A stretch of DNA of 64,000 nt, taken from Deltaproteobacteria bacterium GWB2_55_19 (GTDB lineage Bacteria > Desulfobacterota > GWC2-55-46). Within the stretch, counting starts at the first letter, position 1. Every line of letters begins with the position of its first letter. Positions 1,607 through 63,905 of this stretch are shown piece after piece. Under the pieces are notes generated by a model, which saw nothing but the letters and a program-made list of their open reading frames with translations, had not been told where the DNA came from and did no database searches. Location of the stretch: assembly GCA_001797465.1 (NCBI GenBank), contig MGPQ01000010.1:124001-188000 (forward strand), in the 5' to 3' direction. Both the position numbers and the translations under genes were made by a program.

Positions 1607-1835
1607 AGGCTGTCTCTAAAAATTAGGAATTTTTTCTGAGGTCAAGGAAGGGCGGAAATAAAAAGCGCAGCATATATGGTAATATGTGAGCACTTTTATT
1701 TCCGCCCTGACGCAGTCCTTGCCGGACGGGCAAATTCGTATCAAACGGCTGAACATATGATACCCCAGGGGCTCCGTTTGATATTTGGCCCTGCGCCGAG
1801 CAGTCAGGAAAAATAACAATTTTTAGAGGTAGCCT
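1607..1835. repeat. MITE-like palindromic element A, copy 1, with a nested insert
   Basis: The element begins AGGCTGTCTCTAAAAATT and ends AATTTTTAGAGGTAGCCT, which are near-perfect terminal inverted repeats. Inside is a second inverted repeat (GGGCGGAAATAAAA and TTTTATTTCCGCCC). The same sequence recurs at 33323-33456, and one end recurs at 57988-58006. Compared with the second copy, this one carries an extra 85 bp at 1716-1800. It contains no coding capacity. It sits between pstB and phoU and may affect coupling of phoU to the pst transcript. Confidence 0.82.
1716..1800. repeat. Palindromic element B, copy 1, inserted into element A
   Basis: This 85-bp segment is absent from the other copy of element A. 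It starts TCCTTGCCGGACGGGCAA and ends TGCGCCGAG, and is flanked by a possible 3-bp target duplication (CAG). Its arms are inverted: GTATCAAACGG pairs with CCGTTTGATA. Related copies start with the same motif at 6400 and 34531, and the 6400 copy is 86 bp long. Confidence 0.72.
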
Positions 1836-6399: not shown

Positions 6400-6485
6400 T
6401 CCTCGCCGGACGGGCAAACCCGTATCAAATGATTATATTTTAAATCGTCCTACAAGGAACCTTTTGACGCTGGCGGTGCGCCGAG
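6400..6485. repeat. Palindromic element B, copy 2
   Basis: Starts TCCTCGCCGGACGGGCAA, continues with GTATCAAA, and ends TGCGCCGAG. At 86 bp it matches copy 1 (85 bp) in length and ends, while the middle has diverged. It lies in the gap between ribF and ubiB. Its right end runs into a GGTGCGCCGAGCGCACC palindrome. Confidence 0.65.
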
Positions 6486-6523
6486 CGCACCTTTTTATAA
6501 AAAGTCCCCCCCAGGTTCAAGTC

Positions 6524-22854: not shown

Positions 22855-23309
22855 GCCGGCGTGTCCGCACGAGCGTTTCAGGTTTTTTGCTTTTTGCGCC
22901 CTGCCGGGCTTTTTTCGGGATAGGGGTTCTCGCTACGCCCTCCCCCTCCCCGCTCGGCGCGGCGCTAGAGTTTTTCGGAAGCTATTGAGGTAAGGTTAAT
23001 AAATCGCTTCGATGCGGACTTTGCCTGTTCGGCGAGGACCACGCGCTCGCCCCTTGCGCGCTCATTTCCCAAAGGTCGCTCATCCTATCCCTGCTTTGTT
23101 TTTAAAAGACAAAGGCACGTAAGGCTCGCGTGCCGCCCCTCATTCGATATGGAGCGTCAGAACACAGCACGTATAAGCGCGACGAAGTCGAGGAGGGAGG
23201 CGTATCTGTTGTACGCCGCAGAGACGAGGAGTAACTCAGGTATGTTTAGTTTGCGCTCTGTGAGGAACGCTCATCTCGCCCCCACCTGATTTCGTTTTTC
23301 CAAAACGGT
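22855..23309. other. Gene-free region with structured repeats
   Basis: I see no gene in these 455 bp between thiC and the convergent GGDEF gene. It contains small hairpins (CTTTGT...ACAAAG near 23094; GGCACG...CGTGCC near 23113) and, at 23177-23239, sequence resembling the element after recO. Confidence 0.5.
23177..23239. repeat. Element D, degenerate copy
   Basis: Shares GTCGAGGAG, GAGGCGTA and TGTACGCCGCAG...ACGAG, in the same order, with the reverse complement of the element at 56108-56231. The outer arms are not recognisable here. Confidence 0.45.
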
Positions 23310-33322: not shown

Positions 33323-33456
33323 GGCTACTAAAAATTAGGGATTTTTTCTGAGGTCAAGGAAGGGCGGAAATAAAAAGCGGAGCATATATGAATAATATGT
33401 GAGCAGTTTTATTTACGCCCTGACGCAGAGATCAGGAAAAATAACAATTTTTAGAG
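33323..33456. repeat. MITE-like palindromic element A, copy 2 (uninterrupted)
   Basis: About 130 bp with the same terminal arms (CTAAAAATT...AATTTTTAG) and internal arms (GGGCGGAAATAAAA...TTTTATTTACGCCC) as copy 1, without the 85-bp insert. Its right end reaches into the aminopeptidase gene, and the TAA stop of that gene lies inside the terminal repeat. Confidence 0.85.
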
Positions 33457-34518
33457 GAACTTCCCGTCCTTCTGTATCGCCTTTCCGTCCAGGTAGAGCG
33501 CGCCGCCCTGCCGCAAGTCCTTTATCATGTCCCAGTGGATCGCCGAGGAGTTCTTGCCGCCGGCCTCTTCGTAAGACCTCCCGACCGCGAGGTGGACGGT
33601 GCCGCCGATCTTCTCGTCAAACAATATGTCCTTCGTGAACTTCTGTATCCCGTAGTTTACGCCGACGCCCAACTCCCCCAAAAACCGCGCCCCCTTGTCG
33701 GTATTAAGCATGGCTATGAGGAAGTCCTGGTTCTTATCAGCCCGGGCCTCGACTACCTTGCCCTTGCTGAACTTGAGCCGGATCCCCGTCACCTCCCGGC
33801 CCTGGTAAATGGCGGGCATCTCGTAGTAGACGTACCCTTCGGCGGAGTCCTCGACAGGGGATAAGAAGACCTCGCCGTCCGGCATGTTCCTCTCGCCGTA
33901 ACAGGGTATCGCCTTCCTGCCCTTTATGGAAATCTTCAGGTCCGTGTCCTTGCCGACTATCCTCACCTCGCGCGCCTTGTCGAGCGCGGCCTTCAACTTC
34001 ATCTCCTTCTGCCTTACCTTGTTCCAGTCGATGTTCGTGGCCCCGTACAGGAAGTCCTCGTACTCGGCAAGAGACATGTCCGCCTCCTGTGCGAGCCCGT
34101 TCGTGGGGAAATTAGTGAGTATCCACCTCTTATTGTTGACTATCTCCTCGCCTATCGGCCTTATCACCTTCGACCTTTCGGCGATCTTCGAGGAATCCGC
34201 GTTCGAGAGAGCCTTTTTGTTCGCGGACGCGCGGATGGTGACGAAACAGTCGACGTTCTTTGCCTCGAACATCCTTATCTTCGGGAAGTTCCGTATCTGG
34301 TCTTTCGATGCGTAATCGAAGAAGAGGTTGGTCGTCTCCTCGAACGCAATCGACGTAAAGGGGTTGCCCCCGGCCTCCAATACCTCTCTGTAGACCTCGA
34401 GTACAAGGGGCTTGGCCAGCTCGGAAGACGAGCTTATCATTACCGCGTCCCCCTTCTTGACGGAAATGGAATGGTTCACAAGGATCGAAGCAAGCTTTGT
34501 TACACGCGGGTCTGCCAT
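33451..34518 (-). CDS. M29-family metallo-aminopeptidase
   Basis: Thermophilic-type (M29) aminopeptidase of 355 aa; the family are cytosolic cobalt/zinc exopeptidases. It opens 'MADPRVTKLASILVNHSISV' with 'KKGDAVMI' following, the usual N-terminal block. The metal-ligand region appears as 'EVFLSPVEDSAEGYVYYEM', and the C-terminal part as 'GELGVGVNYGIQKFTKDILFDEK' features plus 'IHWDMIKDLR'. GGAGG 6 nt before the ATG fixes the start. The TAA stop is supplied by the arm of mobile element A, and element B lies just upstream. Confidence 0.88.
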   Translation of the reverse strand: MADPRVTKLASILVNHSISVKKGDAVMISSSSELAKPLVLEVYREVLEAGGNPFTSIAFEETTNLFFDYASKDQIRNFPKIRMFEAKNVDCFVTIRASANKKALSNADSSKIAERSKVIRPIGEEIVNNKRWILTNFPTNGLAQEADMSLAEYEDFLYGATNIDWNKVRQKEMKLKAALDKAREVRIVGKDTDLKISIKGRKAIPCYGERNMPDGEVFLSPVEDSAEGYVYYEMPAIYQGREVTGIRLKFSKGKVVEARADKNQDFLIAMLNTDKGARFLGELGVGVNYGIQKFTKDILFDEKIGGTVHLAVGRSYEEAGGKNSSAIHWDMIKDLRQGGALYLDGKAIQKDGKFL

Positions 34519-34530
34519 GATACCTCCTGG

Positions 34531-34595
34531 TCCTCGCCGGACGGGCAATTTTGTATCGATTGCTTAAAGGTTTGATAAGCCTCAAAGGCGCCGAT
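34531..34595. repeat. Palindromic element B, copy 3 (short)
   Basis: Starts TCCTCGCCGGACGGGCAA, continues GTATCGA, and ends near GCGCCGA, about 65 bp. It directly abuts the ribosome site of the aminopeptidase gene, so it lies in that gene's leader. Confidence 0.55.
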
Positions 34596-34681
34596 TGAAA
34601 CTGACCGCGCGCCCCGGGTTTTTAAATGCGGCCGTTGCCGCTGAAAAATATCGTAAGGCAACTTCCGCGCGTTTGTTGATT

Positions 34682-57816: not shown

Positions 57817-57990
57817 TCAGTCCGAATTCCGCGTGAAGAGTATGAACGCCATAGCAGGGCGTTTGGACGAGTCACGCATGGCGAAGTGGATGCCGTCGAG
57901 GTTCCATCCCTCTTTGACCCGTTCGTTTATCGCCTTTTCCATCTCTTCGTCCGTTACGGTAGACAGCTCTATGACTTTGTAATTAAGCAT
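57817..57990 (-). CDS. DUF4177 small protein
   Basis: 57-aa soluble protein: 'MLNYKVIELSTVTDEEMEKA', then an Asn/Glu-rich helix and 'GWNLDGIHFAMRDSSKRPAM', ending 'FILFTRNSD'. The beta-alpha-beta pattern with 'YKVIEL', 'EGWNL' and a terminal beta strand matches DUF4177, whose function is unknown. The ATG directly follows the arm of mobile element A, and no clear ribosome site is visible. It precedes the RDD gene in a two-gene unit. Confidence 0.75.
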   Translation of the reverse strand: MLNYKVIELSTVTDEEMEKAINERVKEGWNLDGIHFAMRDSSKRPAMAFILFTRNSD

Positions 57991-58006
57991 TTTTAGAGGT
58001 AGCCTT
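57988..58006. repeat. Element A, solitary end fragment
   Basis: ATTTTTAGAGGTAGCCT is identical to the right end of copy 1 (1819-1835). The rest of the element is missing. Its inner end contributes to the ATG of the DUF4177 gene. Confidence 0.7.
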
Positions 58007-62629: not shown

Positions 62630-62654
62630 AGGGGGCTGTGGGTTCAGCCTTGCG

Positions 62655-62792
62655 TAGGGTGCGCTGAGCGCACCATTTGAGTACTGTCCCTATATGGCTC
62701 GGACTTGATAATGCCTCCAGCCTTATCCCAATGGTAAAGGGGGTGGCGAGTCCTTAAATATTATTTGTAAAAGGTGCGCATAGCGCACCCTA
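62655..62792. repeat. Inverted pair of GGTGCGC palindromes (family C)
   Basis: TAGGGTGCGCTGAGCGCACC at 62655 and GGTGCGCATAGCGCACCCTA at 62773 are each palindromic and lie in opposite orientation, 98 bp apart. Confidence 0.7.
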
Positions 62793-63063
62793 CCGTTGGC
62801 TTTATAGCCCAACAAAAATAAAGGGAAGAAATGTTGGGCTTCGCTGCGCTCAGCACGACATTTTTTTTGTTTTTCAAACACACAGGGGCGCATGGCGGAT
62901 AGCGCCTAAGGGAGGCCGGGGGAGCGAGCCGGGGCGCGAGGAGCGTAGCGACTTTAGGGGCGAGCGAACGAGGAAGAGGAGGAAGAAAGCGCTCGGAGCC
63001 ATCGCCAAAAGCGCGCAGAGCGCGCAAAATGGCATTTGGCAAAGATTCTAAAAATAATTAAAA

Positions 63064-63084
63064 GGTGGGCGGAGCCCACCCTAC
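63064..63084. repeat. Family C palindrome downstream of the hypothetical gene
   Basis: GGTGGGCGGAGCCCACC followed by CTAC. It is inverted relative to the copy at 63841, so the two bracket the hypothetical gene. Confidence 0.7.
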
Positions 63085-63840: not shown

Positions 63841-63905
63841 GTAGGGTGGGCTACGCCCACCAGATCATCACTCCGAAAGAAAATGGTGGACGGAGCCCAC
63901 CCTAC
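63841..63905. repeat. Inverted pair of GGTGGGC palindromes (family C)
   Basis: GTAGGGTGGGCTACGCCCACC at 63841-63861 and GGTGGACGGAGCCCACC plus CTAC at 63885-63905, in opposite orientation, just upstream of the hypothetical gene. Confidence 0.75.

Follow-up and report, generated by a model that had tools for sequence, protein, structure and literature searches.

We found two unlike short non-coding mobile elements stacked in one bacterium, a clean and dated case in which the inner element, B (~88 bp), is younger than the outer element, A. The stretch of DNA that was analysed (the window) spans 64 kb of contig C10 (positions 124,001–188,000) in the draft genome of a groundwater bacterium (G000, 2.63 Mb), and the genomes used for comparison were likewise drafts and metagenome bins. 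The order of events is readable because the empty site, the scar, the occupied site, and the composites are all visible in close relatives. Taken together, our results make it moderately probable that A, a MITE, was moved by a DDE-type enzyme, that B is a separate non-autonomous element with single-strand HUH (Y1-like) movement, and that B entered A and the machinery of A then spread the composite, a form of repeat hitch-hiking.

The stacked copy lies between pstB and phoU. An earlier note on this DNA had described positions 1607–1835 as a copy of the repeat at 33323–33456, interrupted by an 85-bp insert between two CAG trinucleotides that were read as a 3-bp target duplication. BLAST supported the interruption (94% identity over 101 bp and 88% over 43 bp, E = 1e-39), while the limits had to be corrected to 1608–1834, with TCAA on either side at 1604–1607 and 1835–1838 (TCAA-GGCTGTC...GGTAGCC-TCAA). 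On the forward strand, the left part of A (1608–1715, 94% identical to 33328–33428) begins with the terminal inverted repeat GGCTGTCTCTAAAAATT (1608–1624), which is conserved at unrelated sites, and ends in GACGCAG. Family alignment and junctions placed B at 1716–1803 (forward strand), making the insert 88 bp long with the right-hand CAG included. The right part of A follows at 1804–1834 (forward strand) and carries the right inverted repeat AATTTTTAGAGGTAGCC at 1818–1834. The nesting of B in A is real and not a product of chance, since G000 contains 44 matches to A, ~32 of them long copies, together with 50 matches to B and 86 B left-end motifs genome-wide. What the earlier note had observed was right as to the nesting and wrong as to the insert length and the CAG duplication; in its interpretation, nesting, relative age, and mobility stood, and the 3-bp duplication did not.

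Element A is ~130 bp long, intergenic, and an imperfect palindrome over its whole length with inverted ends GGCTACCTCTAAAAATT. In the 31 copies with both ends recognisable, the terminal inverted repeats read GGCT[AG][CT]CTCTAAAAATT at both ends. Identical 4-mers immediately outside the ends were found in 12 of these copies, compared with a mean of 1.5 and a maximum of 6 in 5000 shuffles, and the duplicated bases favoured the pattern TNNA (TCAA, TTAA, TAAA, TTGA, TACA). At the pstB-phoU site, where TCAA is duplicated around the A+B copy, the relative G004 and the main haplotype of G002 have a single TCAA and no element. A third relative, G001 (flank 97% identical), has TCAA-GGCTACC-TCAA, which resembles an excision scar, as would be expected from a deletion between two CCTC repeats. 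The matching flanking 4-mers, the empty site with one TCAA, and the scar with two show that A is a MITE with a true 4-bp target duplication. It shares with the bacterial MITEs Correia, RUP, and Nezha (from general knowledge; MITE review, PMC10969869) a size of ~130 bp, inverted ends, a palindromic build, duplications, intergenic placement, and tens of copies, and differs from them in its own ends GGCTACCTCTAAAAATT and its 4-bp TNNA duplications. A is family-wide, being present in 30 of 59 relatives. Two partial A matches in G000 were inspected for an autonomous parent, and both were end fragments with no transposase.

Other traces of A were also observed. A solitary right terminus at 57981–58005 (forward strand, 88% identical to the right end of A), followed by TTAA, is the remnant of a copy since lost. 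In the plain A at 33323–33456, the right end provides the stop codon of an aminopeptidase-like gene (33451–34548, reverse strand), whose equivalent in G004 likewise ends in A. In one G002 locus (L212, contig C58, 1220–1810), the empty site and part of phoU precede the right-hand half of an A carrying B, after which phoU recurs; the contig seems to combine two haplotypes, through duplication or through chimeric assembly of strains.

The claim that A preceded B was borne out. Among 60 genomes searched, B was confined to genus g1 (present in G000, G001, G002, and G004, not in G003), and none of the 26 A-bearing genomes outside the genus had B. The plain A at 33323–33456 (forward strand) also lacks B at the same site in G004, with the junction GACGCAGAGATCAGG intact, and G001 keeps only a deleted relic there. 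The family-wide A without B outside the genus and the B-free 33-kb copy in G004 indicate that A is older than the entry of B, and they contradict the converse possibility, raised in the earlier note, that the insert always belonged to A and the 33-kb copy is a simple deletion. On a tree of A built after removing B, the presence of B changed 7 times, compared with 17 in shuffles (minimum 12), and most composites fell into one group; the sequences are short, and one of the rows, L065, consists of two neighbouring A copies and is no true composite. Where composites occupy unrelated sites, they carry duplications of their own of the A type (TCAA in the window, TAAA in L070, TTTA in L142, and ATTA in L071). 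This grouping and these duplications together indicate that A+B moved as a unit. B occupies a fixed position in A, always following GACGCAG or a point variant thereof. AGATC directly follows B in L034, L072, L074, and L145; the AGA is missing in the others, which are most of the A+B copies, when compared with empty A. From the tree and the duplications, B entered A at least once and the composite then multiplied by means of the machinery of A, further entries being possible. The mobility of both families, also proposed in the earlier note, is supported by copy number, by empty and scarred sites in relatives, and by the confinement of B to one genus against the family-wide spread of A.

To characterize B, we gathered 232 left ends and 187 complete units in the g1 genomes carrying it; the statistics drew on 185 distinct units and on a subset of 79 at <85% identity. 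Units are mostly 86–92 bp long and consist of TCCTYGCCGGACGGGCAAA, a variable middle, and TTTGGCC..GCGCCGAGC.., with the left-end consensus TCCTYGCC-GGACG-GGCAAA. The left mini-hairpin GCC-GGACG-GGC (1721–1731, forward strand) was identical in 60 of 75 diverse units, and its GGC arm occurred in all listed variants. The case for this hairpin, with its 3-bp stem, is purely one of conservation, whereas that for the right terminal hairpin, CTGC-GCCGA-GCAG (1791–1803, forward strand), is one of covariation. At the right end, the last four bases of B pair with four upstream bases across the loop GCCGA, in the general form XYGC-GCCGA-GCY'X'. In the same 75 units, which are related sequences, 282 of 300 cells were paired, compared with 33–159 of 300 when the partner was slid by 1–4 bases. 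The outermost pair (-13/-1) was formed in 72 of 75 units against 38 expected, and the next position outwards was unpaired. Closely related units differ by swaps of whole pairs, the variants being CTGC/GCAG, CCGC/GCGG, GTAC/GTAC, GTGC/GCAC, and GCGC/GCGC. Given such swaps among close relatives and the failure of the slid pairings, the covariation is unlikely to stem from chance or shared descent. The right-hand CAG therefore belongs to B, as it pairs and covaries with B-internal bases. The inverted arms that the earlier note had ascribed to the insert are present in this copy; a long internal palindrome as a family feature was rejected, because a unit's own arms paired no better than swapped arms. 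RNAalifold on whole B units gave almost no consensus structure.

The window contains three further B units. Those at 6400–6488 and 34531–34619 (both forward strand; E = 2e-6 and 9e-5) confirmed relatives already pointed out in the earlier note, and the third, at 22950–23038 (reverse strand) in a GCGAGCG...GGGGAGG repeat context, had been missed. The unit at 6400–6488 sits within a different, palindromic repeat (GGGGG...ACTTTTTATAAAAAGTCCCCCCC); it is absent at this site in G002 and G004 and present in G001. The unit at 34531–34619 has a degenerate right end, and its site is empty in G001 (CCTCCTGG joined to GTTTTTAA) and occupied in G004. At the 6400 locus, the B middles of the window and of G001 (L237) were 68% identical, compared with 56% for random 44-mers, while the flanks were 95–97% identical, which suggests replacement of the unit and not point mutation.

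Among the B units, 108 were members of arrays, 24 lay in A, and 30 lay in three further repeat contexts, and B was placed after stop codons. The arrays run head to tail with exact junctions. Middle identity between neighbouring array units was bimodal, with 28 of 60 pairs at ≥0.9 and 26 of 60 at 0.5–0.7, like random units. In one G000 array (L083, C19:175600–176700), a run of N interrupts the units, from which we conclude that B arrays probably break contigs and that the copy numbers are underestimates. At 61 unique insertion sites, the base before B was G in 55 cases, and the base at -2 was G in 33. A fixed tetra- or pentanucleotide target to the left of B was sought at these sites, and only the G was found. 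B thus inserts mostly after G and leaves no target duplication. The last two bases on the left and right agreed at 22 of the 61 sites against 15 expected (p = 0.0085), a slight agreement that hints weakly at a 2-bp core in the target. General targeting of palindromes by B was rejected, as the flanks of unique sites did not exceed random DNA in self-complementarity; that B enters other repeats is thus established for individual cases and not as a general rule. Another such context was seen in G002 (L097, 1150–1330), where a B unit lies within GTCATTGCGAGGAGCG...CAATGAC, a further dispersed palindromic repeat.

Several other explanations for B were considered. If B were an ordinary inverted-repeat MITE with a 3-bp CAG duplication, then CAG on both sides of most A-borne copies, CGG/CGG in a second repeat context, and the ability of the left and right 20-mers of B to pair would all be accounted for. 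This explanation is largely refuted and very unlikely, since the right trinucleotide is the 3' arm of a covarying hairpin inside B, and left and right trinucleotides agreed at only 4 of 61 unique sites, at the chance level (2.3 expected). We consider it just as improbable that B is an immobile sequence of the cell, dispersed by recombination and as a passenger of A or other repeats. Most copies do lie in arrays or other repeats, and near-identical neighbours point to tandem duplication; against this, solo copies are occupied in some relatives and empty in others (6400, 34531), and unit boundaries are exact at many unrelated sites. Rolling-circle replication of the Y2 kind (IS91- or Helitron-like), with arrays arising by read-through at the right end, would fit the terminal 3' hairpin, the absence of a duplication, and the head-to-tail arrays with exact junctions. 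The frequent lack of relationship between adjacent array units speaks against it, and we regard this route as improbable. A search for Y2_Tnp in 8 genomes gave 0 matches, and its control was equally silent. Two array-forming systems, CRISPR and integron attC arrays, were set aside by reasoning: B has dispersed solo copies, no constant-repeat/unique-spacer pattern, and no attC core GTT.

It is possible but rather doubtful that B is of the REPIN/REP type and owes its mobility to a RAYT (REP-associated tyrosine transposase) that has been lost from the genus or still exists in it. B shares with REPINs and with GTAG and CGTC REPs (PMC3116915; PMC3733652) a size of <100 bp, conserved ends with a variable spacer, compensatory end hairpins, clusters beside existing copies, insertion inside palindromes, and close placement against stop codons. 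Published cases include REP dimers located within palindromes (PMC3733652) and REPIN clusters attributed to insertion beside copies already there (Bertels and Rainey 2011, PMC3116915). Y1 genes are encoded by three of the four B-bearing genomes; none was detected in the fourth, G001, whose genome is 85% complete. However, relatives without B also have Y1 genes, and B lacks a GTAG or CGTC tag, ends in two unlike hairpins (the left one GCC-GGACG-GGC) in place of inverted copies of one REP, forms head-to-tail arrays, and flanks no RAYT. The only Y1 gene detected in G000 (C10:256.5 kb), a RAYT, is flanked by GTAG-GGTGCGC REPs, and it was rejected as the enzyme of B. At the RAYT loci L097–L107, B does not bound the genes, which have other REPs or none.

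We also compared B with other single-strand systems. IS200/IS605 elements integrate 3' of a short target, make no target duplication, and depend on subterminal hairpins (PMC7290912), and REP nucleases cut next to hairpins, with complementarity determining the cleavage site (PMC8266576). Like non-autonomous IS200/IS605 elements, B has hairpins at both ends, lacks a target duplication, and inserts 3' of its target. In contrast, its target is only a G and not a tetra- or pentanucleotide, no cognate TnpA was found, its hairpins are very short, and its terminal tetranucleotide pairs with the 5' arm over a 5-nt loop in place of a separate guide. B thus works like a REPIN or an IS200/IS605 relic, a likeness of behaviour more than a claim of membership. 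It falls outside the REPIN definition, and a standard IS200/IS605 element would have a stronger target; we therefore classify it as a new variant whose way of working is similar to theirs. Its ends covary strongly and its arrays are exact, yet no enzyme is known for it, a situation like that of the CGTC REPs, for which the transposase is an open question (PMC3733652).

The reading we prefer thus involves two enzyme types, because the inverted ends and 4-bp duplications of A and the terminal hairpin of B without duplication point in different directions. For A, the inverted ends and the duplications suggest that a DDE-type transposase, working on those ends, was probably responsible for movement. 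B, with end hairpins, no duplication, and joining behind a G as HUH hallmarks, would probably travel in single-stranded form with the help of an HUH (Y1-like) enzyme supplied in trans, which would recognise the end hairpins and join B 3' of G. Within the genus, B would have entered A between GACGCAG and AGATCAGG, with a single entry in the main lineage and possibly one to three others, and the machinery of A would then have spread the A+B composite. The arrays would arise through new units joining the right end of one already present, as well as through tandem duplication; the former is expected if a unit's right end serves well as a target for another.

Supply of a transposase in trans, as the earlier note had presumed for both families, is plausible; no transposase gene and no autonomous partner were found for A or B. 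An autonomous B element was rejected after pairing of left- and right-end motifs in G000 (by eye, one mismatch allowed), as no left end stood out as having a distant right end. Counting against the preferred reading are the lack of an autonomous partner for either element, the single G as target of B, its left hairpin of only 3 bp, the other REPs around the only Y1 gene detected in G000, the B-bearing G001 with no detected Y1 gene, and the slight two-base agreement at unique sites. More speculatively, and in our view unlikely, B could represent a new class of single-strand element that combines its terminal cleavage tetranucleotide with the complementary guide in one mini-hairpin (XYGC-GCCGA-GCY'X'). 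The two would have changed jointly on many occasions, which would let units insert at each other's ends and give heterogeneous head-to-tail arrays.

An 18-mer scan identified the groundwater Deltaproteobacteria MAGs JACPGB, JACREU, and JACREV in GenBank among the close relatives sharing B; non-Deltaproteobacterial matches were about as many as expected by chance (~15 by our own estimate) and were ignored. Rfam annotation of the window returned only tRNAs and a TPP riboswitch. The window also contains GTAG-tagged REPs (GTAGGGTGCGC...GCGCACC and GTAGGGTGGGC...GCCCACC) at 62654–62793, 63064–63084, and 63841–63861, of the type that flanks the Y1 (RAYT) gene of G000.
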